Source: Cyclobacteriaceae bacterium
GTDB taxonomy: Bacteria > Bacteroidota > Bacteroidia > Cytophagales > Cyclobacteriaceae
Reading direction: 5' to 3'
NCBI GenBank assembly: GCA_019638395.1
Contig: JAHBTX010000005.1
Coordinates: 248,001-312,000, forward strand
Length of the DNA stretch: 64,000 bases
A program made the translations under genes and the position numbers. The notes below the pieces were generated by a model. That model saw only the letters and a list, made by a program, of their open reading frames with translations. It was not told where the DNA came from and made no database searches. Below are positions 30,953 to 56,170 of the stretch, piece by piece (the stretch's first letter is position 1; each line of letters begins with the position of its first letter).

Positions 30953-31291
30953 ATGAAAAAATACCAACTGGGCGAGTTTGAAGAAGTGGTGATGCTTACC
31001 GTAGGCATCTTATATGATGAAGCCTATGGCGTATCCATTAAAAAGGAAATTGAAACGAGATTAAAACGCGGAGTAAGCGTGGGTGCGCTGCAAACTGCCT
31101 TAAAAAGATTGGAAGACAAAGGATATTTGAAATCGCATGATGGTGAGGCTACGGAAGAGCGGGCGGGCAGGCCAAAAAAATATTTTCAGATTACAGCCTT
31201 GGGGAAAAAAGCAATGGAGTATTCGAAAAGCACGCGTGATGAATTGTGGCGTGCTATCCCTAAAGTAGCGCTCGATGTAAAATTCAGTTAA
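30953..31291 (+). CDS. PadR-family regulator 1 (head of permease cassette 1)
   Basis: A 112-residue winged-helix PadR-type regulator: KKYQLGEFEEVVMLTVGIL, then YGVSIKKEIETRLKRGVSVGALQTALKRLEDKGYL (recognition region) and GRPKKYFQITALGKKAM (wing). The C-terminal dimerisation helix is short, as in the smallest PadR proteins. The start at 30953 matches PadR regulators 2 and 3 in this window, which also begin just before LGEFEE; the longer frame from 30887 adds an unrelated leader. PadR proteins usually repress neighbouring transporter genes. Here a secreted ThuA-like protein and four prefix-bearing permeases follow in the same direction, so it probably controls them. Confidence 0.9.
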   Translation: MKKYQLGEFEEVVMLTVGILYDEAYGVSIKKEIETRLKRGVSVGALQTALKRLEDKGYLKSHDGEATEERAGRPKKYFQITALGKKAMEYSKSTRDELWRAIPKVALDVKFS

Positions 31292-31319
31292 CAACTATTT
31301 GCCATTCAACCAAAAAAAT

Positions 31320-32057
31320 ATGAACACGAAATCCTTACTCACCTCTATTTTACTGTTGTGTGCTTGCTTCGGCCCCAACCTGTTAGCCCAAAAGAAAATT
31401 CTTGTCGATGTGGCTCATGGTCAAAAATTCTACAGTAACCCTGCCGACAAGATTTCGACCGAATTAGTACCCACCCAGCGGCTTGAGTACATGACCGGTG
31501 AACTCACAAAAAATGCAGCCGCTCATAATGCAAGTATCAGCTATATAAAAACAGCTATTACTGCAGAATCATTGTCCAAAACTGATTTGCTTTTCATTCA
31601 CGTTCCATCCCTAAAATATTCAGCCGATGAGTGTACGATCATTAAGCAATACCTGGAAAGGGGGGGCTCCTTATTTATTGTCATTGAAGAAGACTATTGG
31701 GCAACACTGGATCAAGTAAACGTAAATGATATACTGTCACCTTTCGGCATCAAATTCTCTACTGACAGTCCTGATAAAACAGTGGGCGGTCACGCCCCGG
31801 AAGGCAAAATCACGAAGAAGAAATACGCTATTCCATTTCACGGAGCGCGCTTGGTGGAAGGAGGTAAGCCATTCGCGTTTAGCAACAAATCAGAGCCGAG
31901 TTCTTTTGCAGTTTACACCGAGGTAAAAGGTGGCGGCAAAATCATAGCGATGGGTGAAGCTATGGCATCGCTTTACATGACGAGCTGGCAAGATGTTAAC
32001 AATTATGAATGTGCTCCATTTATGCAAGATGTTATTGGATGGCTTTTAAAAAAGTAG
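31320..32057 (+). CDS. secreted ThuA-like / class I glutamine amidotransferase-like protein
   Basis: 245 residues with a signal peptide (MNTKSLLTSILLLCACFGPNLLAQ). The mature part has the alternating strand/helix pattern of a GATase1/ThuA-like fold: KILVDVAHGQKF, TDLLFIHVPSL, IIKQYLERGGSLFIVIEEDYW and GGGKIIAMGEAMASLYMTSW. I do not see a nucleophilic Cys in the elbow, so it is unlikely to be an amidotransferase. The start at 31320 was chosen because it directly begins the signal peptide. It lies 28 bp after PadR1 and upstream of P1, so it is part of cassette 1. Its TAG stop lies inside the first unit of a 7-nt repeat array. Confidence 0.75.
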   Translation: MNTKSLLTSILLLCACFGPNLLAQKKILVDVAHGQKFYSNPADKISTELVPTQRLEYMTGELTKNAAAHNASISYIKTAITAESLSKTDLLFIHVPSLKYSADECTIIKQYLERGGSLFIVIEEDYWATLDQVNVNDILSPFGIKFSTDSPDKTVGGHAPEGKITKKKYAIPFHGARLVEGGKPFAFSNKSEPSSFAVYTEVKGGGKIIAMGEAMASLYMTSWQDVNNYECAPFMQDVIGWLLKK

Positions 32058-32124: not shown

Positions 32125-32139
32125 ACTTATTAAACGAGT

Positions 32140-34785
32140 TTGAAAACAGAAAAACCATATCCACCTAAAGCAACCCTCCGCTTCTTCCGCTGGTTCTGCC
32201 ATCCGAAGTTGCGCGATAGCATTGAAGGAGATTTGATGGAGTTGTACGAAGAAAGAAAAATTAAAAGTGGAAAGGTAAAAGCGAACGCACACTTTATTAA
32301 AGATGTACTGCTTCTATTCAGACCAGGAATTATAAAACCAACAGAAGGAACACACACATTAAGCACCTACGGCATGTATAAAAGTTATTTTAAAGTCGGA
32401 TGGAGGAATCTGGTCAAGAACACAGGATACTCAATAATCAATATCGGTGGTTTGGCGCTCGGTATGGGTGTAGCCCTGGTGATTGCATTATGGGTACATG
32501 ATGAGCTGTCGTTTAACCAGTACCATCAAAATTATCCCCGCATAGCCCAAGTGATGAAAGGGGGAATGTTTGAAGGTCGGCATTATGAAGGACAGACCTC
32601 GTTACCTTATCCGTTAATCGAGGAGTTGAAAAATAATTATGCTGACAATTTTAAACACATTGTTCCGGTTTCGTGGTACTGGGAAGGTGTTCTTTCTATT
32701 GGCGATAAAAAAATCTCGAAGAAAGGATTGTATATCGGTGAAGGCGCACCCGAAATGCTTACCTGGAAAATGGTGTATGGCGATTGGTCTGCATTAAAAG
32801 AGATGCATTCGATTATGATTTCTCAATCAACCGCCAAAGCACTCTTTGGTGATGCAGATCCCATTAATCAGGTCTTGAAAATTAATAACGAACAGGATGC
32901 TACCGTTACCGGGGTATATGAAGATTTCCCGATGAATACAGAACTGTACGGACTTCAATTTGTTCAACCCTGGAGCTTTCTAATGAAGGATGCTGTATGG
33001 ATAAGCAAACAAGGATGGGACAATCATTTTCTTGAACTCTATGTGGAGGTAGCACCGAATACCAACTTTGAGAAAGTTGAAGCAAACATCATCAACGCAG
33101 AAATGACTGCTATTAAGGATCTGGCTTATATGAAGGACGAGTTGAAGTACAACTACGAAATACTTCTACATCCCATGAGCGACTGGCACTTGCATTCTGA
33201 TTTCAAAGAAGGTATTCTTCAAAATGGTCCAATGCAAATGGTTTGGTTTATTGGATCCATTGGTGTATTCGTACTGCTGCTGGCTTGCATCAACTTTATG
33301 AATCTTAGCACAGCTCGTTCTGAAAAGCGGGCGAAAGAAGTGGGCATTCGGAAAACAATAGGCTCGGTGCGCTGGCAATTAATCGGACAGTTTTTGAGTG
33401 AATCTTTTCTGGTTGTGATACTGGCTTTTGTTTTCGCCATAACATTGGTAGCCGCTTCACTTCCCTGGTTTAACGAGCTATCGGGTAAAGCGATGGGTTT
33501 GCCGTGGACGCAGGGATGGTTTTGGATAGGTAGTGCACTTTTTCTTTTCCTTACCGGAATGCTGGCCGGAAGTTATCCTGCACTTTATCTGTCATCGTTC
33601 AAACCCGTAAGTGTGTTGAAGGGCGTTTTTCGTGCAGGTCGGTTTGCATCTACACCTCGCAGAGCGTTGGTTGTTTTACAGTTTACGGTTTCCGTAATGC
33701 TTATCATTTGTACAGGCGTTATTTATAATCAACTCATGTATGTGAAGGATCGCCCGGTGGGCTATGAACGAGACGGATTGATTCTGGTACCTAAAAAATC
33801 AAACGCCTTTACAACAAAAGCAGATGCGTTGAAAGCAGAACTTATAGCGAGTGGTGCAGTAAGTGAGGTTGCAGAAGCAGGTGGATCGGTTACACAAGTG
33901 TGGTCGAACAATGGTGGCTTTACACAAGATGGAAGGAATCTGGATAAAGATCATGGCTTTGCTACCCTGGGTGTCTCGCACGACTATGGTAGAACCGTAG
34001 GCTGGGAGTTTATAGAAGGTCGTGATTTCTCAAAAGAGATTGCGAGTGATTCTGCGGGATTTGTTATTAACGAAGCAGCTGCAAAGTTTATGGAGATTGA
34101 TAACCCCTCCGGCCAAATCATTCATTGGAAAAACGGCCCCTGGAATGTGGATAGCGATTTTAGAATCCTGGGTGTGATCAAAGACATGGTGATGGATTCT
34201 CCCTTCGAGCCCGTAAAGCCAACCGTGTACTTCACAATGGGATGGAAAAATTGGTTGTTACTGCGCATTCCTCCCAATGTTCCGGTACGGGATGCACTTC
34301 CTAAAATTGAAAAAGCATTTGCCCATGTTATTCCCGACATACCATTTGATTACAAATTTGCCAACGTAGAATACAGCGCAAAATTCAAAACGGAAGAACG
34401 CATTGGAAAATTGGCAGCAATCTTTGCAACGCTCGCCATCATTATCAGTTGTCTTGGCTTGTTTGGGCTTGCTTCTTTCATCGCGGAACAGCGAACAAAA
34501 GAAATTGGTATCCGAAAAGTATTAGGGGCTTCGGTTGCTAACCTTTGGAGGATGTTATCGCGTGAGTTTGTGCTGTTGGTAATCTTGTCGTGTGTCATTG
34601 CCGCACCGCTTTCCTATTACATTTTGTATAAAGGAATTCAACAATATGAGTATCGAACCGATATCAGTTGGTGGATTTTTGCATTGGCCGCTGGTGGCGC
34701 GTTACTTATTACGTTGCTCACGGTAAGCTTTCAATCCATCAAAGCAGCAATGACGAACCCTGTAAATAGTTTAAGAAGTGAATAA
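32140..34785 (+). CDS. P1: prefix-domain two-FtsX ABC permease
   Basis: 881 residues, starting with TTG at 32140. Residues 1 to about 75 are the permease prefix domain: LRFFRWFCHP, then IEGDLMELYEERK, then FIKDVLLLFRPGI. Met79 in YGMYKSYFKVGWRN begins a normal FtsX/MacB permease. It has one N-terminal membrane helix, a MacB-type periplasmic domain, an FtsX triplet of helices, a further helix, a second periplasmic domain and a second FtsX triplet. Coupling-helix motifs KEVGIRKTIG (about 398) and KEIGIRKVLGAS (about 787) would contact an ATPase. The tail is NPVNSLRSE. First permease of cassette 1, after PadR1. No ATPase gene is adjacent; substrate unknown. Confidence 0.9.
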   Translation: MKTEKPYPPKATLRFFRWFCHPKLRDSIEGDLMELYEERKIKSGKVKANAHFIKDVLLLFRPGIIKPTEGTHTLSTYGMYKSYFKVGWRNLVKNTGYSIINIGGLALGMGVALVIALWVHDELSFNQYHQNYPRIAQVMKGGMFEGRHYEGQTSLPYPLIEELKNNYADNFKHIVPVSWYWEGVLSIGDKKISKKGLYIGEGAPEMLTWKMVYGDWSALKEMHSIMISQSTAKALFGDADPINQVLKINNEQDATVTGVYEDFPMNTELYGLQFVQPWSFLMKDAVWISKQGWDNHFLELYVEVAPNTNFEKVEANIINAEMTAIKDLAYMKDELKYNYEILLHPMSDWHLHSDFKEGILQNGPMQMVWFIGSIGVFVLLLACINFMNLSTARSEKRAKEVGIRKTIGSVRWQLIGQFLSESFLVVILAFVFAITLVAASLPWFNELSGKAMGLPWTQGWFWIGSALFLFLTGMLAGSYPALYLSSFKPVSVLKGVFRAGRFASTPRRALVVLQFTVSVMLIICTGVIYNQLMYVKDRPVGYERDGLILVPKKSNAFTTKADALKAELIASGAVSEVAEAGGSVTQVWSNNGGFTQDGRNLDKDHGFATLGVSHDYGRTVGWEFIEGRDFSKEIASDSAGFVINEAAAKFMEIDNPSGQIIHWKNGPWNVDSDFRILGVIKDMVMDSPFEPVKPTVYFTMGWKNWLLLRIPPNVPVRDALPKIEKAFAHVIPDIPFDYKFANVEYSAKFKTEERIGKLAAIFATLAIIISCLGLFGLASFIAEQRTKEIGIRKVLGASVANLWRMLSREFVLLVILSCVIAAPLSYYILYKGIQQYEYRTDISWWIFALAAGGALLITLLTVSFQSIKAAMTNPVNSLRSE

Positions 34786-34789
34786 GAAT

Positions 34790-34826
34790 GTTACTGGTTT
34801 ATTGGCAACTGGAAACCGGTAACCAG
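34790..34826. repeat. heptamer repeat with inverted arms, GTTACYG family (P1-P2 gap)
   Basis: Units of 7-8 nt that begin with G and end in NACYG run from 34790 to 34826. GTTACTGGTTT (34790-34800) and AAACCGGTAAC (34813-34823) pair as inverted arms with one T/C difference (a G-U pair in RNA). The same element recurs in the next two gaps. Confidence 0.7.
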
Positions 34827-34829
34827 AGA

Positions 34830-37460
34830 ATGATGAAATCAAATCCACCCAAACTCGCCCTCCGCTTCTTCCGTTGGTTCTGCCACCCGAAGTTATGCGA
34901 TAGCATTGAAGGAGATTTGATGGAGTTGTATGAAGAACGAAAAATTAAAAGTGGAAAGGTAAAAGCGGACGCACACTTCATTAAAGATGTGCTGCTGCTG
35001 TTCAGGCCGGGGATTATAAAACCAACAGAAGGAACACAAACATTAAACACCTACGGTATGTATAAAAGTTATTTTAAGATTGGATGGCGGAATCTTTTAA
35101 AGAACAGAGGCTTTGCTGTAATCAACATCGGAGGCCTTGCTGTTGGTGTAACGGTAGCCATATTAATCGGGCTCTGGATTTTTGATGAAGTTAATTATGA
35201 TACCTATCACACCAACTACAACCGTATTTCGCAAGTATTAACCCGCGAAACAGATGAAGACGGAACCGGGATAAATACTTCCCTTCCATACCCTTTGGCT
35301 TTAGAGCTGAAAGCAAACCATGCTGATAATTTTAAGCACATTGTCGTTTCAACATTTGGTATTCGCGAATACATTTTATCTACAGAGGATCGAAATTTTA
35401 CAAAGACCGGACAGTTTATGGATGCCGGTGCGCCAGAAATGTTATCGTTGAAAATGATTCATGGCTCATATACCGCATTAAACGATCCTAACACAATTAT
35501 ACTGTCTGCATCTACAGCTCAAACTTTCTTTGGCGATAGTAATCCGGTAAACCAATTAATGAAAATTAACAACCGACTTGATGTAAAAGTTACCGGTGTT
35601 TACGAAGATTTACCTAAGAACACAACTTTTGCTGATCTTAAGTTTTTGGCTCCGTTTGATTTATGGCTGGTTGATAATCCATGGGTAAAAGAAAAAGCCA
35701 TTAATGATTGGAGTAATCACTTTTTGAAAGTCTATACTGAAATTTTGCCTTCCACTGATTTTGCAACCGTAGCTGCCCGCATTAAAGATGCTGAACGAAA
35801 TGGCGTGAAAGACATTCCAGAACAAGCCGCACAAAATCCTGAAGTTTTTTTACACCCCATGCAGGATTGGCATCTCTATAGTTTTAAAAACAGCGTTGTA
35901 AATCCCGAACCCAGCAGGATTGTAAAACTGGTTGGATTGATTGGCGCATTAGTACTTGTACTGGCCTGCATTAACTTAAGCACCGCGCGCAGCGAAGTAA
36001 GAGCAAAAGAAGTTGGAATCAGAAAAGCAATTGGTTCTTTGCGTCACCAACTTATTGGTCAATTCTTAAGCGAATCTTTTCTGGTTGTGATTTTAGCATT
36101 CGTAATCGCATTTGTATTGGTTAGCCTGCTGCTGCCGTGGTTTAATGATCTTACAGCTAAGCAAATCGTTTTGCCCATTAGCAGTACTCCATTCTGGTTA
36201 ATGATACTTGCTATTGTTTTAGTAACAGCTCTCCTTGCCGGTATGTACCCGGCATCCTATCTCTCTTCCTTTAAACCGGCTAAAGCTTTGAAAGGTGTTA
36301 TGCGTGCCGGAAAAGGTTTGTATTCACAACGCAGAATTTTAGTAGTAACACAGTTTACTATTTCAATTACACTTATTATCTGCACAATAATTATCTACAA
36401 TCAGATTCAATTTGCGCAAAACAGACCTGTGGGTTATAGCCGCGAAGGATTGATCATGCTGGAAATGAAGGGCAACGACCTGAAGGGTAAGTATGAAATC
36501 TTAAGCAATGAATTGAAAAAGGCAGGTGTAGTTTCTGAAGTATCCCAATCAATGGGAAAAATAACGCAGGTATGGTCAAACAACGATGGTTGGGATTGGC
36601 AAGGCAGGGACCCAGCACTTACCAAAAGTTTTGGAACACTTACCATTACACCTGAACACGGTAATGTAATTGGTTGGCAAATACTGCAAGGCCGCGATTT
36701 CAGTAACAACCTGGTGAGCGATTCTTCAGCCATTGTTATCAATGAGGCAGCGCTTAATTATATGGGTATAACGAATGTGGTAGGTGAACGTATGAGTTGG
36801 ACATTCAATGACAAAACCTATCACTACGAAGTAATTGGAATCGTGAAGGATATGGTTATGGAATCGCCTTATCAACCCATACGGCCAACCATATTTTTAA
36901 TGAAAGCACCTAACGGCAAGCCCAATTGGGTGAATATAAAAATCAATCCAGCTATCAGCACACAACAAGCACTTATTAAAATAGAAGAGGTACTTAAGAA
37001 AGTTGCTCCGACCACTCCATTCGATTATAAGTTTGTAGATGACGAGTACAATGCAAAATTTCTTGCTGAAGTACGCATCGGAAAACTAGCAAGTTTGTTT
37101 TCATCTTTAGCTATTTTTATTTCCTGCCTGGGTTTATATGGTATGGCCAGCTTTATTGCTGAACAACAAACAAAAGAAATTGGCATTCGTAAAGTTTTAG
37201 GTGCCAGCATCACCAACCTCTGTGCATTGCTTTCAAAAGATTTTGTGCTATTGGTTGCCATTTCTTGCATTGTTGCAATACCTATTGCTTACTATTCAAT
37301 GGCTGCCTGGTTAATAAAGTTCCCTTATCGAACGGAATTATCTTTCTGGATATTTATAGTAACCTGCCTGGGCGCGTTAATGATTACACTTTTAACTATA
37401 AGTTTTCAGGCTATTAAAACTGCGATGGAAAATCCAGTGAAAAGTTTGAGAAGCGAATAA
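34830..37460 (+). CDS. P2: prefix-domain two-FtsX ABC permease
   Basis: 876 residues from the chosen ATG at 34830. The frame is open 14 codons further up to 34788, but that part is translated repeat DNA and is not conserved. The prefix (LRFFRWFCHPKLCDSIEGDLMELYEERK) is nearly identical to P1, P3 and P4. The internal junction Met is residue 77 (YGMYKSYFKIGWRNLL). Coupling motifs are KEVGIRKAIG (about 393) and KEIGIRKVLGAS (about 781), and the tail is NPVKSLRSE. Same two-FtsX layout as P1. One residue pair is missing in the first FtsX helix (CINLSTARS, where P1 has CINFMNLSTARS), a small deletion that may or may not matter. Second permease of cassette 1. Confidence 0.9.
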   Translation: MMKSNPPKLALRFFRWFCHPKLCDSIEGDLMELYEERKIKSGKVKADAHFIKDVLLLFRPGIIKPTEGTQTLNTYGMYKSYFKIGWRNLLKNRGFAVINIGGLAVGVTVAILIGLWIFDEVNYDTYHTNYNRISQVLTRETDEDGTGINTSLPYPLALELKANHADNFKHIVVSTFGIREYILSTEDRNFTKTGQFMDAGAPEMLSLKMIHGSYTALNDPNTIILSASTAQTFFGDSNPVNQLMKINNRLDVKVTGVYEDLPKNTTFADLKFLAPFDLWLVDNPWVKEKAINDWSNHFLKVYTEILPSTDFATVAARIKDAERNGVKDIPEQAAQNPEVFLHPMQDWHLYSFKNSVVNPEPSRIVKLVGLIGALVLVLACINLSTARSEVRAKEVGIRKAIGSLRHQLIGQFLSESFLVVILAFVIAFVLVSLLLPWFNDLTAKQIVLPISSTPFWLMILAIVLVTALLAGMYPASYLSSFKPAKALKGVMRAGKGLYSQRRILVVTQFTISITLIICTIIIYNQIQFAQNRPVGYSREGLIMLEMKGNDLKGKYEILSNELKKAGVVSEVSQSMGKITQVWSNNDGWDWQGRDPALTKSFGTLTITPEHGNVIGWQILQGRDFSNNLVSDSSAIVINEAALNYMGITNVVGERMSWTFNDKTYHYEVIGIVKDMVMESPYQPIRPTIFLMKAPNGKPNWVNIKINPAISTQQALIKIEEVLKKVAPTTPFDYKFVDDEYNAKFLAEVRIGKLASLFSSLAIFISCLGLYGMASFIAEQQTKEIGIRKVLGASITNLCALLSKDFVLLVAISCIVAIPIAYYSMAAWLIKFPYRTELSFWIFIVTCLGALMITLLTISFQAIKTAMENPVKSLRSE

Positions 37461-37465
37461 GAGAT

Positions 37466-37500: not shown

Positions 37501-37512
37501 GAAAATCATGAA

Positions 37513-40131: not shown

Positions 40132-40136
40132 GAGAT

Positions 40137-40172
40137 GTTACCAGTTACTGGTTTACTGGAAACCGGTAACTA
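40137..40172. repeat. heptamer repeat with inverted arms, GTTACYG family (P3-P4 gap)
   Basis: Units GTTACCA, GTTACTG, GTTTACTG, GAAACCG, GTAACTA. Arms AGTTACTGGTTT (40143-40154) and AAACCGGTAACT (40160-40171) are complementary over 12 nt with one G-U type difference. The element begins 5 bp after the P3 stop. Confidence 0.75.
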
Positions 40173-40176
40173 TAAA

Positions 40177-43703: not shown

Positions 43704-43770
43704 AGATTTTTAATTCGCACACGACAAGTGTTTTATGTCTGCGATAGGGTAGGCCTGTAAAATTATTCTT

Positions 43771-43824
43771 ATTTACTTAACAAAAGTGAAACTAATTTAT
43801 TAAATTCACGTTTGTTAAGTAAAT
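43771..43824. promoter_or_regulatory. long inverted repeat before PadR2 (candidate operator)
   Basis: Two 20-nt arms, ATTTACTTAACAAAAGTGAA (43771-43790) and its reverse complement with one mismatch (43805-43824), are separated by 14 bp and end 3 bp before the PadR2 ATG. The length and near-perfection stand out in an otherwise AT-rich leader. Autoregulation by the PadR2 dimer is the natural reading. Confidence 0.65.
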
Positions 43825-43827
43825 ACT

Positions 43828-44154
43828 ATGACACAACAATCACTCGGAGAGTTTGAGGAACTCGTTTTATTAATGGTGGCCGCCCAGCACGATGAAGCCT
43901 ATGGTGTTACTATTCTGGAAGGTCTTGAAGAAAAACTCGATAAGAAGGTAAACATCAGTGCCGTTCACGTTGCGCTTAAGCGCATGGAAGACAAAGGTTT
44001 TGTCAAGTCGCGCTTTGGCGGCATAACCGAAGACCGTGGCGGCAGACGCAAAAAATTCTACGTGATTACCGCGCTCGGAAAAAAAATGCTGGATGCACAA
44101 TATGATTTAAGAAACAGTATCTACAAGCAGATTCCTAAGATATCGTTTGGCTAA
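43828..44154 (+). CDS. PadR-family regulator 2 (head of permease cassette 2)
   Basis: A 108-residue PadR winged-helix protein: SLGEFEELVLLMVAAQHDEAYGVTILEGLEEKLDKKVNISAVHVALKRMEDKGFV then GGRRKKFYVITALGKKML. It differs more from PadR1 and PadR3 than those two do from each other. The ATG at 43828 lies 3 bp after a 20-nt inverted repeat that is the likely operator. P5, P6 and P7 follow on the same strand and are the probable targets. Confidence 0.92.
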   Translation: MTQQSLGEFEELVLLMVAAQHDEAYGVTILEGLEEKLDKKVNISAVHVALKRMEDKGFVKSRFGGITEDRGGRRKKFYVITALGKKMLDAQYDLRNSIYKQIPKISFG

Positions 44155-44235: not shown

Positions 44236-44241
44236 ATTAAT

Positions 44242-46881: not shown

Positions 46882-46900
46882 ACGAGTTTTTAGAATAGTA

Positions 46901-47548
46901 ATGAAAAACCATCCACCGAAACGATTTCTTCAATTTCTCCGCTGGTTTTGCCGCGAAGATTACCTCGATGAGATTGAAGGTGACTTGTTAGAGATTTATA
47001 AAAAGCAATCAGAAATCTCTCCACGCAAAGCGAAATGGAATTTTGGTTGGAGTGTGATCAGATATCTAAGGCCACAGTTTATACATATTAACTTACAAAA
47101 CTCTAGAATCATGAAATCAATACTCAGTATTAAAGAAAATCCGTACGTACTGCTTTTGTTTACAACAATTGTCTTGCTGTTCGCGCTCGCTTTTCGTCCA
47201 ACCACTGACATCGAGATTCAAGAAATAACAATGTTCAGTTTTCCGCTGAGTAACATCGTTTGGGTATTTCCTTCTCTTCTGCTATCCTCTTGGCTGATTT
47301 ATTTGGTAACCAATAAGTTTCTTTATTCGATAACTATCATATGGGTACACGTACTTATAACGGTTATCACTACGCTACTAATTATTATTGTCGTATACGT
47401 TGGCATTAATCCATCGCAGTTTACAAGCAATCGACACGAGATGATTGGAACCACTATGCAAATTTTATCTCTGCTATTTGTGTTTGGCCAACTCGCTTAT
47501 GTAGTAAATATTTTAATTGGAATTTTTGGAAAGGTTAAAGCTCAATAG
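46901..47548 (+). CDS. P6: permease prefix domain joined to an unrelated four-helix membrane module
   Basis: 215 residues. Residues 1 to about 62 are a type II prefix nearly identical to P5 and P7 (LQFLRWFCREDYLDEIEGDL ... SPRKAKWNFGWSVIRYLRP). At Met71 (NSRIMKSILSIKENPY) the sequence switches to a different protein with four hydrophobic segments: about 80-97, 112-134, 138-162 and 185-207. It has no MacB periplasmic domain and no FtsX coupling motif, so it cannot be a simple truncated permease. The new module has its own ATG at 47111 and could once have been a stand-alone small membrane protein. It lies 19 bp after P5 and 17 bp before P7. I do not recognise the family of the second part. Confidence 0.85.
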   Translation: MKNHPPKRFLQFLRWFCREDYLDEIEGDLLEIYKKQSEISPRKAKWNFGWSVIRYLRPQFIHINLQNSRIMKSILSIKENPYVLLLFTTIVLLFALAFRPTTDIEIQEITMFSFPLSNIVWVFPSLLLSSWLIYLVTNKFLYSITIIWVHVLITVITTLLIIIVVYVGINPSQFTSNRHEMIGTTMQILSLLFVFGQLAYVVNILIGIFGKVKAQ

Positions 47549-47565
47549 TTAATGGGCCTTCCAGA

Positions 47566-50241
47566 ATGAAGATACAACCACCCAAACGACCCCTCCAATT
47601 TCTCCGCTGGTTTTGCCGCGAAGATTACCTCGATGAGATTGAAGGTGATTTGATAGAGGTTTTCATCAAACAATCAGAAACCTCTCCGCGCAAAGCAAAA
47701 TGGAAGTTTGCGTGGAGTGTGATCAAATACTTCCGCCCCGCGTTCATTAAACAAATGAAACAACAACCCAACCCATACGGTATGTATAAGAGCTATTTCA
47801 AAATCAGCGTCCGGCAATTGATCAAAAACAAAACTTTTACCGCCATTAACATAAGTGTGTTAACGCTGGGGTTCACCTGCTTTTTATTGTTGGCCCTTTA
47901 CCTGCACGATGAACTGTCGTTTGATATGTTTCATCGCGATGCACATACTATTTATCGCATCACTCAACGCGATCAACAAGACAATGGCACCCTTCGCAAT
48001 ATTTCTGCCGTTGCCCCAACAATCGGCAAAGAAGTTCAAGAACAATTTCCGGAGGTGGAGGACATGGTGAGGCTGTCGGCATTTGGGCGAGTAACGCTGG
48101 GCAACGATCCAACCAATCGCACACATGAACGTGCACTCTCAGCCGATGATAATTTTTTCACGTTCTTCGATTTTCCGTTGGTGGAAGGCGATGCTAAAAC
48201 CGCCTTGAAAGAACCTTTCACTATCGTTGTTTCTGAAACTATAAAGGAAAAGTATTTTGGAACTGGCTCGGCTCTGGGAAAACAGATCTGGTCGGGGTAC
48301 AGGCGCGAAGGGCAGCCCATCTACTTAACAGTTGGCGGTGTGATGAAAAACTTCCCGAAAAACTCACACCTGCAAATTGACATCCTGTTCTCCGATGCCA
48401 CCTGGCACTCGCTATACAATGACTACGCGCAGTATGTAACTACCGAGTGGGTTGATACTGAATACACCACCTACTTAAAAATAAAACCGCAAAGTAATAT
48501 AGCATCACTTGGTACCAGAATAGATGCCTTGGTAAAATCGAATTATCCTGCCAACCGCGAGTTTCGCAGTAGCTTTACATTACAACCGATGCAGGAAATC
48601 CATACCAATTCCAGCCAGTTAGAATCTGCAGCCGATGAGTTTAATGCAAATGGTATCAAACCTTTTTATCTCTACACTTTTGCTGCGCTTGGTTTAATTC
48701 TATTGATAACCGCTTGCCTCAATTACATGAATCTCGCCACGGCTGTTGCTATCAAGCGTACACGCGAAATTGGAACCCGCAAAACATTAGGAGCCCCTAA
48801 AACGCAAATGGTTGCACAGTTTATTACCGATTCGATGTTGTTCACATTACTTTCATTGCTTCTATCGGTTGCATTGGTTTATTTGGTTTTGCCTTGGATA
48901 AACATTTTCGCCAACAAAGAGATTTCGATTAGCGCTTTGCCTGTAGAGTGGCTGATTTTTGTTGTTGTTATCATTGTGTTGGTAGGTGTGTTGGCTGCGC
49001 TGTATCCGGCCTTTATTGCCACACGGGTTTCAATTGTAGATGCTTTAAAGCGTGAAATAAAAATAGGTGGCCGTAGTTTTTCTGTAAGGAAAGCCCTGTT
49101 GATTATGCAGTTTGCTATTTCGGTTATGATGATTGCCTCAACTCTCATCATCTACCAACAGCTAAACTATTTACGCGAAAAAGATCTGGGCTTCAGTCAT
49201 GAAAACCTGGTGGTGATTGACGTTAACAGCCGCAACCTGAGGCGCAATTTTGAAACCGTTAAAACTGAATTCGGCAAGCCAGCCGAAATATTGCAAGTCG
49301 CTGCTTCTACACGCGTGCCGGGCGAGTGGAAAAGTTTTCCGGTAGCCACTACCAGAAGCAGTGAGAATCCTACCGGTAGCGAGATGATTTTTGTAGGGAT
49401 CGATAAAGATTTTCTCGAAACCTATAAAATTAAACTGCTGGCCGGTCGTAGCATTGAAGATCCGGTTGCCGACTCGCTTAAGATTGTAGTTACGCAATTG
49501 GCAGTGGAACAGCTTGGGTTAATAAGCGATCCCATCGGACAAACAATTGAAATACCTCGCGTACGCTATGGCGAGCGCATGGAAGAATTAGAGGCTCCTT
49601 TCAGAGTTGAGATTATTGGTGTGGTGGAGAATTTTCACTTCGAGTCGTTGCGGAGTAAACAGATGCCGGTAATTTTTGGAGCACTCAATACCGAAATTCA
49701 GGTGATTGATTACTACACACTACAGATCAATACAAGTAACTGGGGCAACACCCTGGAAACACTGAAAGCGATTAATAATAAAATCGATCCGGATACTCCG
49801 TTGGAATATACTTTTCTGGATACCCGCTTTGAAGAAATGTATGTAGCTGATGCCAGACGCGGACAGATCTTTCTGGTGCTGTCTGTTATTGTGGTTATCA
49901 TAGCAAGCCTGGGTTTGTTTGCCCTGGTTTCGTATTCGGTGGAAAGTCGCTTGAAGGAAATTGGTGTACGCAAAGTAATGGGCGCATCAATAAGCAGTAT
50001 TGTCGCCCTCATCTCGAAAGAGTTTTTACTGTTGGTAACCATTGCCGGAGCCATCGGTCTACCCATTGCGGGATACTTTATGCAAGGTTGGTTGCAGGAG
50101 TTTGCCTATCATATTCCGTTTGGCGTATTGGTTTTTGCGGAAGCGCTCTTGGTTACGCTTGTTATTGCCTTTATAACCATTACTGCGCGCACCATACGCG
50201 CAGCCAGGTTAAATCCGGTAAACAGTTTGAGAAGCGAGTAA
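47566..50241 (+). CDS. P7: prefix-domain two-FtsX ABC permease, type II prefix
   Basis: 891 residues. The prefix is nearly identical to P5/P6 (LQFLRWFCREDYLDEIEGDL, IKQSETSPRKAKWKFAWSVIKYFRPAF). Junction Met73 reads YGMYKSYFKISVRQLIKNK. The body is divergent from P5, with NISVLTLGFTCFLLLALYLHDEL and its own periplasmic domains. Coupling motifs are REIGTRKTLG (about 400) and KEIGVRKVMGAS (about 798), and the tail is NPVNSLRSE. Third gene of cassette 2. Confidence 0.9.
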   Translation: MKIQPPKRPLQFLRWFCREDYLDEIEGDLIEVFIKQSETSPRKAKWKFAWSVIKYFRPAFIKQMKQQPNPYGMYKSYFKISVRQLIKNKTFTAINISVLTLGFTCFLLLALYLHDELSFDMFHRDAHTIYRITQRDQQDNGTLRNISAVAPTIGKEVQEQFPEVEDMVRLSAFGRVTLGNDPTNRTHERALSADDNFFTFFDFPLVEGDAKTALKEPFTIVVSETIKEKYFGTGSALGKQIWSGYRREGQPIYLTVGGVMKNFPKNSHLQIDILFSDATWHSLYNDYAQYVTTEWVDTEYTTYLKIKPQSNIASLGTRIDALVKSNYPANREFRSSFTLQPMQEIHTNSSQLESAADEFNANGIKPFYLYTFAALGLILLITACLNYMNLATAVAIKRTREIGTRKTLGAPKTQMVAQFITDSMLFTLLSLLLSVALVYLVLPWINIFANKEISISALPVEWLIFVVVIIVLVGVLAALYPAFIATRVSIVDALKREIKIGGRSFSVRKALLIMQFAISVMMIASTLIIYQQLNYLREKDLGFSHENLVVIDVNSRNLRRNFETVKTEFGKPAEILQVAASTRVPGEWKSFPVATTRSSENPTGSEMIFVGIDKDFLETYKIKLLAGRSIEDPVADSLKIVVTQLAVEQLGLISDPIGQTIEIPRVRYGERMEELEAPFRVEIIGVVENFHFESLRSKQMPVIFGALNTEIQVIDYYTLQINTSNWGNTLETLKAINNKIDPDTPLEYTFLDTRFEEMYVADARRGQIFLVLSVIVVIIASLGLFALVSYSVESRLKEIGVRKVMGASISSIVALISKEFLLLVTIAGAIGLPIAGYFMQGWLQEFAYHIPFGVLVFAEALLVTLVIAFITITARTIRAARLNPVNSLRSE

Positions 50242-50242
50242 C

Positions 50243-50298
50243 TCAATTGACAACATCCAATTGACAATCCCGATAGCTATCAGGAGCAATTGGATGTT
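50243..50298. repeat. TTGACAA-family repeat with nested palindrome (after P7)
   Basis: TTGACAA occurs twice exactly 14 nt apart (two 7-nt units). Arms AACATCCAATTG (50252-50263) and CAATTGGATGTT (50287-50298) are perfectly complementary over 12 nt and enclose TCCCGATAGCTATCAGGA (50268-50285), one base away from the palindrome in the tRNA terminator at 19286-19303. It may also work as a terminator for cassette 2, although no strong T-run follows. Confidence 0.7.
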
Positions 50299-50361
50299 AC
50301 TGATTTAGTTTGTGAACTGGTCCTTTTTACGCAATTAAATACCGTTCGATCACGCGCAAAT

Positions 50362-50379
50362 CTGTTCGTGAACGAACAG
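50362..50379. promoter_or_regulatory. palindrome upstream of PadR3
   Basis: CTGTTCGT-GA-ACGAACAG has perfect 8-nt arms around a 2-nt centre, about 97 bp before the PadR3 ATG. A second short palindrome, AGAAT-AAT-ATTCT (50459-50471), lies 4 bp before that ATG. Either could be an operator; there is no further evidence. Confidence 0.4.
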
Positions 50380-50475
50380 GTTGTGCTTCAGAAATCCTGT
50401 TAATTAAAGTAGAAATGCCCGATTTGCAATCTGGCACAATTGTTATTCCTACATTTAGAGAATAATATTCTATTC

Positions 50476-50838
50476 ATGAAAAATTATCAACTCGGGGAGT
50501 TTGAAGAAATTGTTTTGCTAACGGTGGGCATCTTGAATAATGAAGCCTACAGTGTGGCTATTAAAGATGAAATCGAATCGCGCCTGAAGCGAACCGTGAG
50601 CATGGGCGCCTTGCACACAGCTTTAATCCGATTAGAGGATAAAGGTTATCTCAAATCTTTTTCAGGCGAAAGCACCGAAGACCGTGCCGGCCGGCCCCGC
50701 AGGTATTTTGAGATCACTGCACTGGGCAAGAAAGCTATGCTGTACGCGAAGGAAACACGGGAACAATTGTGGAAAGCAATACCGAAGGCAGTACTGGAAG
50801 TTAGTTTACAAAAGTTGGCAGTAAGCAGTCACCAGTAG
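50476..50838 (+). CDS. PadR-family regulator 3 (head of permease cassette 3)
   Basis: A 120-residue PadR protein closely resembling PadR1: KNYQLGEFEEIVLLTVGIL, then IKDEIESRLKRTVSMGALHTALIRLEDKGYL and GRPRRYFEITALGKKAM. The start at 50476 aligns with PadR1 and PadR2; the frame is open 12 codons upstream without conservation. Compared with PadR1 the C-terminus has an extra KLAVSSHQ. That extension is encoded by the first units of a heptamer repeat array, which also supplies the TAG stop. It precedes P8 and P9 and probably regulates them. Confidence 0.91.
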   Translation: MKNYQLGEFEEIVLLTVGILNNEAYSVAIKDEIESRLKRTVSMGALHTALIRLEDKGYLKSFSGESTEDRAGRPRRYFEITALGKKAMLYAKETREQLWKAIPKAVLEVSLQKLAVSSHQ

Positions 50839-50880: not shown

Positions 50881-50894
50881 TAATAATAGATAGA

Positions 50895-53516
50895 TTGAAA
50901 TCTAAAAAATATAATCCTCCCCAACTCGCCCTCCGCTTCTTCCGCTGGTACAGCAACCCGCGGTTACAGTATTACATCGAAGGCGATTTGATGGAGGTGT
51001 ATGAACGAAGAATTAAAAAGTCGGGTAAACTCATGGCCGACATCAGGTTCTCGGTTGACGTACTCTTGCTATGCAGACCGGGAATAATCGGAAGCAAACA
51101 AAATAATTACTCATCAAATCATATCGATATGTTTCGCAACAATTTTAAAATCGCACTTCGTAACCTTTGGAAGAACAAGCCCTCTACCGTAATCAATGTA
51201 TTAGGACTTACCACCGGTATCACCGCTTGTTTACTGATTGCCTTATTCATTCAGCACGAACTTAGTTTCGATCAGTTTCAATCGAAGGGAAGCCGCATTG
51301 CCCGCGTAGTGATGGAGTATGGATTTGAAGGAAGTACTGAAACCAATAAGGGCACATTCACCAGTACCAAAGTAGCGCCTGTACTGTCACGCACCTTTCC
51401 TGAAGTTGAAAAAGGTGTACGCATGACCGATGCAGACATGATCTTACGATTAAACAATGAACCTGTTACTGAGCCCAACTTCATGTTCTCAGACTCTTCC
51501 TTTTTCGATACGTTCGATTTTGAAATGTTGGAGGGCGATGCTGAAACCGCTTTGGATGGCAAATATAAAATTGTGCTTACTGAAACCGCAGCCCAAAAAT
51601 ATTTTGGTAATGAAAGTGCGGTAGGCAAAATATTGGAAGTGGGAGCAGCCAAAACTCCGTACGAGGTTACCGGGGTGATGCGCGACTACCCTAAAAACTC
51701 ACAACTCAAATTTGACTTTCTGGCATCGTTCTCTTCGATGGGGCAAAACCAGGAAGAAACTTATTTCAATGCCAACTACACTACTTATCTTTTATTAAGC
51801 AATGAGTTTGCTTTTGCACCCCTGAAAGAAAAGCTTGATCCGTTCATGGAAAAAGAAATGAAAGGAACAGGCGCCACCATTCGCTTTCATCTTGAAGCGT
51901 TTCGCGATGTTCACCTGCAATCACCCTATCGGGCCTTTGTTTCAAACACCAGTATGTCGTACTTGTATTTGTTGGGTGGTGTAGCGTTGCTGATCATTAT
52001 TATTGTTTGCTCCACATATGTAAACCTGAGCACAGCCAAATCCATTGAGCGTGCAAAGGAAGTAGGTGTGCGTAAAGTATCGGGTGCGGCACGCACGCAA
52101 TTGTTCTGGCAGTTTATTGGTGAAGCTTTTGTAGTTTGTTGCTTGTCGGTAGTGGTCAGCTTTTCTGCGGCTTCGCTATTACTACCGTATTTCAATACGT
52201 TTGTTGATCGCAGTTTTCAACTTACCGATCTCTTTACGCCTACATTTTTGTTGATTACCTTTTTGATTACGATCGCCATTAGTCTTGCTGCCGGCAGTTA
52301 CCCCGCCATTATTTTATCGGGTATGCAACCTGCACGCATTCTGAAAGGCTTGTTTAAAAATTCGTCATCGGCCAAACAACTTCAGCATTCGTTGGTAGTA
52401 TTTCAATTTGCGATTACCGTGTTTCTGATTGTGTGTACCATTATCATCCGCAACCAACTCAGCTATATTCAAAATAAAAGTTTGGGTTACGATCGCAACC
52501 ATGTACTGTCACTTAATATTGGATGGGATATGGATTACAACAAATTGAAAACCATCAAGCAGGAGTTGAAAAAAAATCCGCTGATCATTGAGGTTTCACG
52601 TGCTGCCAACAGCCCCGTAAACATTTATAGTGGTTACAGTATGCGGTTACCTTCCATGCCCGAAAACGAAGTTATCTCTGTAAACGCTAACCCAATAGAT
52701 GAAGGGTTTCTTAAAACCAACGGGCTACAATTAATTGCAGGCAGAGATTTTTCTGAGCAAGATTTAGAAGCCGCCAATCGTGAAGGAGAGAATAAAGAAT
52801 TTAGTTACATCATTAACGAGCGCACAGCTAAAACATTTGGGTGGACGCCCGAAGAAGCAATTGGCCGCCAGTTGGTGTTGAATAGTCCAGGCGAGATACG
52901 CGGGGTGATTAAAGATTTTCACTTTCAATCCATATACAACGATTTAAAGCCGATAGTTTTGTTCACCGCTCCCTGGGGTGGAAATCTTCTATTGGTGAAA
53001 ACTTCCGGTGGTGATATACCCGCCACAATTGCTTACATCGAAACAGTTTGGAAAGAATTAGTACCCAATCGCCCATTCGAATACAGTTTTCTGGACGATA
53101 CATACGCCAGCATGTATAAAACCGAAACTCAATTGGGTAATGTAATGAGTTTGTTTTCGGCCACAGCTATTATACTCGCTTGCCTGGGTTTGTTTGGGCT
53201 GTCATCGTACATGATGCAACAGCGTATGAAAGAAATTGGCATCCGGAAAGTATTGGGCGCTACACTCATGAACCTGATCGGCATTCTGTCGGGCAACTTT
53301 ATTATACTGGTGATTATCGCTATCGTAATTGCAAGCCCTTTAGCCTACTTGCTAATGAAAAGCTGGTTAAGTGAATTTGCATACCACACCGGTATTGCGT
53401 GGTGGATATTCGCAGTGGCCGGAGTGGTAATCATTTCGATTACGATAATAACGGTAAGCATTCATGGCTTCAGAGCAATGGCGGAAAATCCGGTGAGGAG
53501 TTTGCGAAGTGAGTAA
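50895..53516 (+). CDS. P8: prefix-domain two-FtsX ABC permease, type III prefix
   Basis: 873 residues with a TTG start at 50895. The prefix (LRFFRWYSNPRLQYYIEGDLMEVYERR, then FSVDVLLLCRPGII) is closest to that of P9. Junction Met79 (DMFRNNFKIALRNLWKNKPS) begins a body unlike P1-P3. Coupling motifs are KEVGVRKVSG (about 388) and KEIGIRKVLGAT (about 779), and the tail is NPVRSLRSE. It lies 56 bp after PadR3, the gap being filled by a heptamer repeat. First permease of cassette 3. Confidence 0.9.
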   Translation: MKSKKYNPPQLALRFFRWYSNPRLQYYIEGDLMEVYERRIKKSGKLMADIRFSVDVLLLCRPGIIGSKQNNYSSNHIDMFRNNFKIALRNLWKNKPSTVINVLGLTTGITACLLIALFIQHELSFDQFQSKGSRIARVVMEYGFEGSTETNKGTFTSTKVAPVLSRTFPEVEKGVRMTDADMILRLNNEPVTEPNFMFSDSSFFDTFDFEMLEGDAETALDGKYKIVLTETAAQKYFGNESAVGKILEVGAAKTPYEVTGVMRDYPKNSQLKFDFLASFSSMGQNQEETYFNANYTTYLLLSNEFAFAPLKEKLDPFMEKEMKGTGATIRFHLEAFRDVHLQSPYRAFVSNTSMSYLYLLGGVALLIIIIVCSTYVNLSTAKSIERAKEVGVRKVSGAARTQLFWQFIGEAFVVCCLSVVVSFSAASLLLPYFNTFVDRSFQLTDLFTPTFLLITFLITIAISLAAGSYPAIILSGMQPARILKGLFKNSSSAKQLQHSLVVFQFAITVFLIVCTIIIRNQLSYIQNKSLGYDRNHVLSLNIGWDMDYNKLKTIKQELKKNPLIIEVSRAANSPVNIYSGYSMRLPSMPENEVISVNANPIDEGFLKTNGLQLIAGRDFSEQDLEAANREGENKEFSYIINERTAKTFGWTPEEAIGRQLVLNSPGEIRGVIKDFHFQSIYNDLKPIVLFTAPWGGNLLLVKTSGGDIPATIAYIETVWKELVPNRPFEYSFLDDTYASMYKTETQLGNVMSLFSATAIILACLGLFGLSSYMMQQRMKEIGIRKVLGATLMNLIGILSGNFIILVIIAIVIASPLAYLLMKSWLSEFAYHTGIAWWIFAVAGVVIISITIITVSIHGFRAMAENPVRSLRSE

Positions 53517-53557
53517 AGCGGGTAACAAAGTGTTAATCAATTTGACAAACTGAGCAA

Positions 53558-56170
53558 ATGAAAGTGCATCCACCAAAACTTCCGCTCCGTTTCTTCCGCT
53601 GGTATTGTAACCCGCGCTTGCAGGATTATATCGAAGGCGATTTGATGGAAGTATATGAGCGAAGATTAAAAACATCCGGCAAACGCCTGGCCGACTTTCG
53701 CTTTGCAGTGGATGTGTTGCTGTTATGCAGGCCGGGTATTGTAAAACCAACAGAAGGATATAAAACATTAAACACATACGGTATGTATAAAAGCTATTTT
53801 AAAATCGGGTGGCGAAACCTGCTTCGCAACAAAGGATATTCTGCTATTAACATTGGCGGCCTGGCTTTGGGTATGTCCATAGCCATGCTTATTGGCCTTT
53901 GGGTATGGGATGAATTTAATTACAACACCTGTCACAAAAACTACGATCGGCTTGCACAGGTCATGCAAAATCAAACAGTTGATGGTAAGGTGATGACCGG
54001 CTATGCTATACCCCGGCCATTAGAAAATGCCATGCGAACTACGTATGGTAACGACTTCGAGTACCTCGCTATGGCTACCTGGCCAGCCGATCATATTTTA
54101 AGTGTAGGTGAGCATAGCATTTCGCAATCTGGAAATTTTGTACAAGTAGATTTTCCGGAAATGATTTCACTGGAAATGATTTCTGGTGCACGAACAGGAC
54201 TAAAAGATCCGGCCTCCATCATGCTTTCGGCCTCAACAGCCATAGCCTTATTTGGCACTACCGATGCACTGAATAAATCGCTACGCATAGGAAACCAACA
54301 CGATGTTAAAGTAACGGGGGTCTATCAGGATATTCCCCTCAACTCTACTTTTACTAATCTAAAGTTTTTATCCAGTTGGGAATTAATTGCTGCATCAGAA
54401 GATTGGATTCGGTATGCCGAAAACAAATGGGACTTTAATTCCTTTCAGCTCATCGCACAACTTGCTCCTGAAGCAGATATGAACTGGATATCTGAAAAGA
54501 TTAACCAGGTACGCGCTATTCATTCTAAAGATGATTATTTCAAACCCGAAATTTTTCTTCATCCTATGCGCGATTGGCATCTTCGTTCGCATTGGGAAAA
54601 CGGAGTTAAAACAGGAGGCCAGATTGAAATGGTATTAATGTTTGGAATCATCGGAATATTTGTGCTCCTGTTGGCATGCATCAACTTTATGAATTTAACC
54701 ACCGCCCGTGCTGAAAAGCGTGCTAAAGAAGTGGGTATTCGCATGGCTGTTGGTTCAGCGCGCAGTCAACTTGTCAACCAGTTTTTAAGCGAAACTTTTC
54801 TAACTGTATTATTCGCTTTTGTTTTTGCATTAGGAATTGTAGTTGCCGTTATGCCGTGGTTTAATCAATTAGCTTCCAAACAAATTGCAATTGAATGGAC
54901 CAATCCGCTGTTTTGGGTTATCAGCTCAGCATTTGTAATCATTACCAGTTTTGCAGCCGGGTTTTATCCGGCATTCATGCTTTCATCGTTTAAGCCTGTT
55001 AATGTTCTAAAGGGTGTATTTAAAACTGACGGGCAAACGTCATTTCCGCGCAAAGTATTAGTAGTTGTGCAGTTTACAGTTTCCATCACGCTGGTCATAG
55101 GTACTTTGGTTATTTATAATCAAATCCAATATTCCAAGAACCGGCCTATTGGATATGACCGCGATGGGTTAATCAGTTTTTTTGTGAAGTCACCGGATTT
55201 TATTGGTAAGTATGAAGCCTTGCGACAGACTTTAAAAAATACCGGAGCTGTAGTTGAGGTAGGCACCTCCACTACACCGCTTACTCAAATCTGGAATAAT
55301 AGTGGTGGATTTAATTGGCCGGGCAAAGATCCTACACTACAATCAGCCGACTTTGGTATCATTGAAGTTAATCATGAATTCGGCAAAACCCTGAACTGGC
55401 AAATACTGGAAGGTCGGGACTTCTCCCATGATTTCCCTTCCGACTCGCTGGCAATTATTCTGAATGAGGCTGCCGTGCGGTTTATGAATATCGAAAATCC
55501 CGTAGGAATGGAGATAACCAACGGTAAAACAAAGTACCATGTAATTGGTATTGTAAAAGATATGATTATGGAGTCGCCCTATCTGCCGGTGCGGCATAAC
55601 CTCTATTTTCTCGATGGCCATTACCGCTATGTAAACTGGATTAACATGAAACTTAACCCGGACAAAAGTGCCGCTGAATCATTGGCTACAATTGAATCTG
55701 TGTTTAAAGAATTTGCTCCCGCGCTTCCCTTCGACTATAAATTTGCAGATGCCGAGTACGCCAGAAAGTTTTCTAACGAAGAATTAATTGGCCGATTAGC
55801 ATATGTGTTTGCCGGACTTGCTACAGTGATAAGTTGTCTGGGTCTAATTGGATTAGCCTCGTTTGTGGCTGAACAACACACAAAGGAAATAGCGGTTCGC
55901 AAAATATTAGGTGCATCATTATTGCAAATTTGGAGTATGCTTTCCAGAAGTTTTGTTGTGTTGATTTTACTTTCAAGCATAGCAGCTGTTCCCTTGGCGT
56001 ATTACCTGATGTCGCAATGGTTGGCTAACTATCAATACCATACCGAAATTTCATGGCTAACAGTTTGCCTTTCAGTGGTGGGTTCACTCCTCATTACAAT
56101 TGCAACCGTAAGCTACCAGACTATTAAAGCGGCAATGGTAAATCCGGTTAGGAGCCTGCGTAGTGAATGA
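53558..56170 (+). CDS. P9: two-FtsX ABC permease with a cassette-3 prefix and a cassette-1-like body
   Basis: 870 residues. The prefix (LRFFRWYCNPRLQDYIEGDLMEVYERR ... FAVDVLLLCRPGI) resembles P8. From TEGYKTLNTYGMYKSYF (junction Met76) onward the protein resembles P3: NIGGLALGMSIAMLIGLWVWDE. Coupling motifs are KEVGIRMAVG (about 390, with Met replacing the usual Lys) and KEIAVRKILGAS (about 777). The tail is NPVRSLRSE. Second permease of cassette 3. It converges with the DUF5916 gene, 13 bp between the stops. Confidence 0.9.
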   Translation: MKVHPPKLPLRFFRWYCNPRLQDYIEGDLMEVYERRLKTSGKRLADFRFAVDVLLLCRPGIVKPTEGYKTLNTYGMYKSYFKIGWRNLLRNKGYSAINIGGLALGMSIAMLIGLWVWDEFNYNTCHKNYDRLAQVMQNQTVDGKVMTGYAIPRPLENAMRTTYGNDFEYLAMATWPADHILSVGEHSISQSGNFVQVDFPEMISLEMISGARTGLKDPASIMLSASTAIALFGTTDALNKSLRIGNQHDVKVTGVYQDIPLNSTFTNLKFLSSWELIAASEDWIRYAENKWDFNSFQLIAQLAPEADMNWISEKINQVRAIHSKDDYFKPEIFLHPMRDWHLRSHWENGVKTGGQIEMVLMFGIIGIFVLLLACINFMNLTTARAEKRAKEVGIRMAVGSARSQLVNQFLSETFLTVLFAFVFALGIVVAVMPWFNQLASKQIAIEWTNPLFWVISSAFVIITSFAAGFYPAFMLSSFKPVNVLKGVFKTDGQTSFPRKVLVVVQFTVSITLVIGTLVIYNQIQYSKNRPIGYDRDGLISFFVKSPDFIGKYEALRQTLKNTGAVVEVGTSTTPLTQIWNNSGGFNWPGKDPTLQSADFGIIEVNHEFGKTLNWQILEGRDFSHDFPSDSLAIILNEAAVRFMNIENPVGMEITNGKTKYHVIGIVKDMIMESPYLPVRHNLYFLDGHYRYVNWINMKLNPDKSAAESLATIESVFKEFAPALPFDYKFADAEYARKFSNEELIGRLAYVFAGLATVISCLGLIGLASFVAEQHTKEIAVRKILGASLLQIWSMLSRSFVVLILLSSIAAVPLAYYLMSQWLANYQYHTEISWLTVCLSVVGSLLITIATVSYQTIKAAMVNPVRSLRSE

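Follow-up and report, generated by a model that had tools for sequence, protein, structure and literature searches.

The window analyzed here, a 64,000-nucleotide stretch of a Cyclobacteriaceae bacterium genome (contig JAHBTX010000005.1, positions 248,001 to 312,000), consists in its studied part of three same-strand gene cassettes, each headed by a PadR regulator gene and followed by genes for membrane proteins that carry a short N-terminal domain, perm_prefix_2 (hereafter, the prefix). Our analysis suggests, with a probability that we put at about three in four, that the prefix serves the membrane protein as a cytoplasmic domain for recognizing and binding the PadR of its own operon. In comparisons across genomes, and even where another body lies in between, prefix type matches PadR more closely than the protein body does, and specific residues coevolve between PadR and prefix. 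In many cases, the main coevolving pair consists of opposite charges whose signs have been exchanged repeatedly, so that paralogous cassettes of one genome can carry different complementary pairs.

Cassette I comprises PadR I and P1 to P4, cassette II PadR II and P5 to P7, and cassette III PadR III and P8 and P9. All nine prefixes are N-terminal and score above the curated cut-off of 35 with the NCBIfam profile NF038404 (perm_prefix_2), and a standalone PadR adjoins the prefix genes in 9/9 cases. Residue numbers follow cassette I, those of the prefix being counted from PP.

30953..31291, + strand: PadR I (PF03551, 46.1 bits, cut-off 27); residue 31 is Lys (codon 31043-31045)
32140..34785, + strand: P1, type I prefix with Glu31, MacB_PCD/FtsX body (NF038404, 51.6 bits; PF12704, PF02687)
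34788..37460, + strand: P2, type I prefix with Glu31, FtsX-type body (NF038404 above cut-off; body typed by alignment to P1)
37513..40131, + strand: P3, type I prefix with Glu31, FtsX-type body (NF038404 above cut-off; body typed by alignment to P1)
40135..42822, + strand: P4, type I prefix with Glu31, divergent FtsX-type body, 27-29% identical to P1-P3 (profiles, alignment)
43828..44154, + strand: PadR II (PF03551, 38.7 bits); residue 31 is Glu
44242..46881, + strand: P5, type II prefix with Lys31, FtsX-type body (profiles, alignment)
46901..47548, + strand: P6, type II prefix with Lys31, short hydrophobic body (NF038404, 53.2 bits, its sole NCBIfam match)
47566..50241, + strand: P7, type II prefix with Lys31, divergent FtsX-type body (profiles, alignment)
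50476..50838, + strand: PadR III (PF03551, 43.4 bits, match given from 50440); residue 31 is Asp
50895..53516, + strand: P8, type III prefix with Arg31, FtsX-type body (profiles, alignment)
53558..56170, + strand: P9, type III prefix with Arg31, cassette-I-like linker and body (profiles; linker 89% identical to P3)

The start of PadR I was set by similarity to other PadRs, the open reading frame (ORF) itself beginning at 30887. Two-unit MacB_PCD/FtsX bodies were recognized in six of the seven window proteins scanned (P1, P4-P9), P6 being the exception.

The sequence-only reading had sorted the prefixes by eye into three types matching the three cassettes, and measured identities bear this out. 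Prefixes are 76-84% identical at the amino acid level within cassette I, 79-84% within II and 78% within III, compared with 34-69% across cassettes (58-69% between I and III, 34-49% between either and II). Prefixes I and III are thus closer to each other than to II, and so are their PadRs (71% identity for I-III, 46% for I-II, 45% for II-III). That the bodies do not follow the cassettes was equally confirmed, since their identities of 24-51% show no grouping by cassette (29% for P5-P7 and 29% for P8-P9). The bodies of P4, P7 and P8 are indeed divergent, as had been stated, but that of P5 (27-33%) is equally so and had gone unnamed. The described likeness of P9 to P3 is specific only in the linker and first membrane helix, which are nearest to P3; the body as a whole resembles P1, P2 and P3 to the same degree (47, 47 and 46%). 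Over this linker and helix, P9 (53558-53800) and P3 (37513-37750) share 89% protein identity with a silent-site difference of 0.44, and their prefixes differ; a recombination boundary at the end of the prefix is likely.

Three cassettes alone are weak evidence, and the pattern was tested on 179 cassettes and then on a cleaned set of 224. A search of 174 loci yielded 323 prefixes and 182 PadRs, 179 of which head cassettes with 297 prefixes; a same-strand PadR thus lies upstream of 297/323 prefixes. Body comparisons leave out the 18 of these 297 proteins that lack a full body. Pairs of proteins from the same genome and the same cassette have a mean prefix identity of 0.72-0.91 at every level of body identity (0.91 representing a single pair), compared with 0.38-0.49 for pairs from different cassettes, among them 21 pairs with bodies at least 60% identical. 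Where bodies are less than 35% identical, same-cassette prefixes are more alike on average in 16/16 genomes having both kinds of pair, although in ten of these the same-cassette side consists of only one or two pairs. Within genomes, prefix and PadR distances correlate at r=0.43 (z 8.5; 631 cassette pairs, 2000 permutations). When the nearest PadR in another genome is taken, the prefix that goes with it ranks in the top 5% for 83% of 179 cassettes, and the body does so for 47% of 175. The correlation with PadR in 58 multi-gene cassettes is r 0.70 for the last prefix, compared with 0.24 (partial 0.06) for the intervening first body, a difference of 0.455 (bootstrap 0.303-0.605). Because linkage alone would favor the intervening body, this result speaks against linkage alone, but not against linkage combined with copying of the first prefix.

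Coevolution at the residue level was analyzed by mean-field direct coupling analysis of joined PadR and prefix sequences. A first set of 243 cassettes (414 pairs) included some from short search loci labeled as separate genomes; their removal left a cleaned set of 224 cassettes and 386 PadR-prefix pairs, in which the leading residue pair and the charge and held-out results described below were all preserved. The body-segment control, the blind charge scan and the tree counts were made on the first set only. Residue 31 of PadR and residue 31 of the prefix (31/31) form the top-ranked of all residue pairs in the joint matrix, with a score of 3.64 in the cleaned set versus a highest value of 2.06 in 40 within-genome shuffles (3.82 versus 2.10 in 60 shuffles of the first set). 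The second inter-protein pair is 74/19 (2.84), followed by 14/37, 46/11, 43/52, 46/52, 44/52 and 74/9 (1.48-1.70); only 31/31 and 74/19 exceed every shuffle of the cleaned set. Eleven 64-column body segments coupled to PadR gave best scores of 0.68-1.40, at ranks 162-1576. When partners were chosen in held-out genomes, the prefix gave the right pairing in 228/265 cases (86%), compared with 43-52% for three body segments and 13% by chance. Covariation thus agrees with the proposal that prefix and PadR coevolve, with 31/31 as the strongest inter-protein pair.

At this pair, the window itself shows Lys/Glu (PadR/prefix) in cassette I (4/4), Glu/Lys in II (3/3) and Asp/Arg in III (2/2). Among the 386 pairs of the cleaned set, charges are opposite in 163 and alike in 3, and 220 include an uncharged residue; re-pairing within genomes (5000 permutations) gave a mean of 102.5 opposite (maximum 124) and 27.8 like pairs (minimum 11). 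The most overrepresented types are D-R, E-K, H-Y and K-E, with weighted counts of 37.3, 16.7, 11.9 and 9.5 versus expectations of 11.4, 5.8, 1.9 and 1.7. Under the 13 genome labels that have PadRs of both signs, 78/143 pairs are opposite and 2 alike. A blind scan for charge complementarity placed 31/31 at the top (z 7.1), with 34/28, 31/28 and 31/34 within the next eleven. Counted on three trees, the two residues change charge class on a shared branch 14, 18 and 17 times, against 4.5-4.7 expected. Among 23 disjoint nearest pairs of a PadR+ and a PadR-, the prefix charge is fully reversed in 10, half reversed in 10, neutral in 2, alike in 1 and changed the wrong way in none. A chance or by-eye artefact was considered as a source of the pattern and ruled out by the window identities, the 16/16 genomes and the coupling in the cleaned set.

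A similar but weaker signal appears at what may be the equivalent position of a second family, perm_prefix_1, which also follows PadRs in other Bacteroidota (50 cassettes, 57 pairs). The equivalence comes from a profile alignment that is itself nonsignificant: hhalign of perm_prefix_2 against perm_prefix_1 gave a probability of 1.4% and a score of 12.2, within the range of 100 shuffled controls (up to 16.3) and below a reversed control (14.1). At this position, the prefix has D/E in 9/12 pairs in which PadR31 is K/R versus 5/45 others (p=3.6e-5), and thinning to 48, 42 and 34 pairs gave p values of 2.3e-5, 2.3e-5 and 6.5e-4. A charge pair also heads the blind Fisher scan, here between residue 73 of the wing and the prefix position just before the equivalent one.

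A structure model of PadR I has the PadR fold (predicted local distance difference test score [pLDDT] 91) and matches solved PadRs. It places residue 31 in a helix spanning 26-37, followed by a helix at 43-55 and by a strand at 74-80 that belongs to the wing. Mapped onto this model, the coupled residues point to a direct contact in which the beta wing, helix two of PadR and the beginning of helix three would lie against the prefix; this contact is a computed prediction, well supported by coevolution. In LftR, a solved PadR-2 protein, Y28, Y48, R53, K56, L69 and the wing are needed for DNA binding (PMC6457526). LftR Y48 corresponds to PadR residue 47 in the alignment to 5dym, as read by eye, and the coupled positions 73, 74 and 76 (wing) and 43, 44 and 46 (start of the recognition helix) lie within the DNA-binding elements of LftR. 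Since the coupled patch touches this face, the prefix would probably compete with operator DNA.

These observations can be assembled into a mechanism. Because the prefix precedes the first membrane helix, it is probably cytoplasmic and would there bind PadR. How much PadR is free would depend on how much permease there is or on its state, with prefix and operator competing for the same patch, which includes the wing and the base of the recognition helix. PadR would repress its own operon, as is usual in the PadR family. In Listeria, LltR represses its own operon. When a Listeria PadR is lost, expression of a gene in its operon for a DUF1700 membrane protein rises about 118-fold (PMC6624303), a derepression that fits the proposed self-repression. 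Candidate operators were found upstream of two of the three PadR genes:

43770..43825, no strand assigned: candidate operator, a 27-nt inverted repeat (89% complementary) ending two bases 5' of the PadR II start (repeat search; putative function)
50359..50382, no strand assigned: weak candidate operator, an inverted repeat of 11 nt (91%) lying 5' of PadR III (repeat search; putative function)

A shorter inverted repeat also lies upstream of PadR I (30762-30788), and a 24-nt repeat of 79% upstream of PadR III (50240-50310). Charge-swapped pairs would help to separate the parallel PadR pathways of one cell, so that the charge code may limit cross-talk among them. A body that joins a cassette would acquire or keep the local prefix through recombination and selection for matching, and recombination where prefix and linker meet may bring in new bodies, as exemplified by P9, with its type III prefix and cassette-I-like linker and body. 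More tentatively, the permease may be an anti-repressor tethered to the membrane, letting PadR go or holding it back; as to the direction of regulation, this is a guess to which we give somewhat better than even odds. The full scheme, a charge-coded modular one-component system in which detachable tags on up to dozens of membrane proteins per genome each dock one PadR, are wired in by recombination and make the permease a membrane-tethered anti-repressor, we regard as a coin toss.

Several observations weigh against this interpretation or limit its reach. Body and PadR distances are also correlated (r 0.27, z 5.4), the body matches or exceeds the prefix in following PadR in 6/17 listed genomes (G004, G023, G028, G038, G055 and G260), and prefix-PadR r is only 0.09 in G260, -0.04 in G305 and -0.18 in G323. 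Among the 26 prefixes outside PadR-headed cassettes, 12 belong to runs starting at the edge of a searched stretch, and 14, in 12 runs, have no same-strand PadR in the 2.2-4.9 kb of visible upstream DNA. The 31/31 pair drops to rank 6 of 7040 when only the 91 non-first last prefixes are used and to rank 5 in a half split. Training for the held-out choice retains homologous cassettes from related genomes, and success is modest in the genome of the window itself (11/19). Pairs with an uncharged residue at 31/31 make up 220 of the 386, so the charge code is not the whole code; the charge scan also contains anti-complementary pairs, down to z -4.9 (65/48), and among the 14-18 shared branches there are some with noncomplementary changes. 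The perm_prefix_1 match was seen before its agreement with the earlier register was noted; it ranks fifth of 1851 in the blind scan, not among the clear leaders, and random re-pairing gives it a z of just 2.6, though it is the best of the PadR 31 row. The prefix model, with three predicted helices, is too poor for use in placing the contact (pLDDT 61) and has no PDB match at E 0.001, and competition between prefix and DNA is argued from homology to LftR.

Local gene conversion, which the sequence-only reading had offered beside coevolution, also has support. At silent sites, prefixes from one cassette resemble each other more than the bodies do, and in 63/179 same-cassette pairs, the prefix silent difference is below 0.3 and that of the body at least 0.5. 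In the window, prefix silent differences are 0.31-0.55 within cassettes I and II and 0.60-0.88 between cassettes, compared with 0.72-0.83 for bodies; P4 and P1 differ by 0.31 in the prefix and 0.75 in the body. The P8 and P9 prefixes are saturated at silent sites (pS, the fraction that differ, 0.75) and still 78% identical as proteins, which recent conversion does not explain. Thus, local copying has shaped cassettes I and II, and the similarity within III has been kept without recent copying. A purely genetic account would go further and hold that PadR and the first prefix form one DNA block, the first prefix being copied to its neighbors, with no contact between the proteins. The unsaturated prefix silent sites beside saturated bodies, the apparently recent copying in 63/179 pairs and the spacing of PadR and first prefix matches (less than 100 bp in 160/179 cassettes) are all in its favor, and it would yield the positive last-prefix test as well. 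It predicts neither the charge reversal nor the rank-1 coupling nor the scarcity of like-charge pairs (3/386), and the perm_prefix_1 signal at the equivalent position would be unexpected. Furthermore, in the 28/179 same-cassette pairs whose prefixes differ by 0.5 or more at silent sites, the prefixes remain 66% identical, versus 41% in 1117 such different-cassette pairs. We consider this account improbable, and as a full explanation, it was set aside on the charge coupling and on these silently diverged yet similar prefixes.

A far less probable alternative is that prefix DNA serves as a PadR operator within each gene, so that the DNA-reading surface of PadR coevolves with prefix codons. The location of the coupled PadR positions in or near the helix-turn-helix and wing would suit this idea, as would the local conservation of silent sites, but it does not predict Lys-Glu, Glu-Lys and Asp-Arg complementarity, 75% of silent sites differ between the P8 and P9 prefixes, and the large inverted repeat precedes PadR II (the search for repeats did not extend to the prefix genes themselves). 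Provided that the prefix does bind PadR, it may instead act as a co-repressor or stabilizing scaffold, leaving bound PadR on DNA. This variant, rather doubtful in our estimation, gains from the fact that position 31, in the second helix, matches none of the residues mutated in LftR, so that the contact could lie beside the DNA; the coupled positions 73, 74, 76, 43, 44 and 46 in elements that LftR needs for DNA count against it, and a membrane tether would then require the operator to be at the membrane. Recognition of PadR by the prefix as a protein domain is the reading that we favor over the purely genetic account and the operator within prefix DNA.

Prefixed proteins are unevenly distributed. 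perm_prefix_2 was found in 14/59 genomes of an order sample, 6/197 of a class sample, 30/60 of a family sample and 9/26 of a second family sample. Four genomes of the window's family (G260, G283, G290 and G307; 4.9-6.9 Mb) have 49 to 63 such domains each, and 30/60 sampled have none. The source genome of the window has 20, all above the cut-off, and 11 PadR matches; eight cassettes hold 19 of the prefixes, and one further prefix has no nearby PadR. No single ORF carrying both a PadR and a prefix match was found in the first 174 loci. One divergent prefix protein (L062, G000:C22:761889) has extra residues early in the prefix and no PadR match in 4.9 kb upstream. P6 had no match in a Pfam scan at E 0.01; short-bodied prefix proteins number 18/297, and P6 is alone among nine read by eye in lacking an FtsX-like body. 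In cassette I, an extra gene (31299-32057) separates PadR I from P1, a gap that is below 100 bp between matches in 160/179 cassettes. Near the cassettes, the ORF at 59076-61334 is permease-like by eye and has no prefix match.

No stated purpose of the prefix was found in the database annotation or literature searched: a literature search for "permease prefix domain" returned nothing, and the NCBIfam entry NF038404, "permease prefix domain 2-containing transporter," gives no function and no link to PadR. In their two-unit MacB_PCD/FtsX bodies, adjoining PadRs and large paralogous sets, the cassettes resemble the ADOP (TIGR03434) and padR_acidobact (TIGR03433) families. The scores set them apart: the six window permeases that were scanned, out of eight, reach 254.1-326.7 bits with TIGR03434 (cut-off 622.3), and the window PadRs reach 37.1-38.2 bits with TIGR03433 (cut-off 101.8). 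An acidobacterial genome is reported to have 102 orphan permeases, 80 of them transcriptionally active (PMC10564751).

If docking occurs as proposed, membrane proteins would address their own gene switch directly, and the prefixed proteins, with as many as 63 prefix domains in a single genome of the window's family, would include parallel one-component membrane-to-gene circuits. Through one residue pair, the choice of partner among paralogues could then be tested directly. A precedent for a transporter that controls a repressor is Mlc, which is held at the membrane by the glucose permease PtsG. In both cases, a cytoplasmic domain of a transporter would keep a repressor off DNA; the proteins are different, and here there are many paralogous pairs per genome and a residue-level specificity code.

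Nothing closer was seen in this search than the HAAS-PadR dyad, proposed in 2024, with FtsX/MacB_PCD fusions, as an alternative to two-component systems (PMC11237479). HAAS (HTH-associated alpha-helical signaling domain) is described there as a short helical N-terminal domain of membrane proteins (e.g., ACO32024.1), always beside a standalone PadR, to which it is proposed to signal through contact. The claim that contact between prefix and PadR would be a new signaling arrangement therefore stands only in part: the shared features, a short N-terminal domain on membrane proteins, including FtsX/MacB_PCD fusions, with an adjoining PadR, were already on record, and the residue-level pairing code is an addition. 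The passages seen of PMC11237479 do not name perm_prefix_2; the HAAS GxP motif, in a kinked third helix, is absent from perm_prefix_2, whose consensus ends, by eye, in a conserved RP; and 297/323 prefixes lie beside a same-strand PadR, so that the association is not strictly invariable. Beyond that proposal, the present system would add a second prefix family, partner recognition at the residue level with charge reversal, and cassette-specific swapping of tags among bodies, and it would, if confirmed, lend the HAAS-PadR proposal residue-level support.

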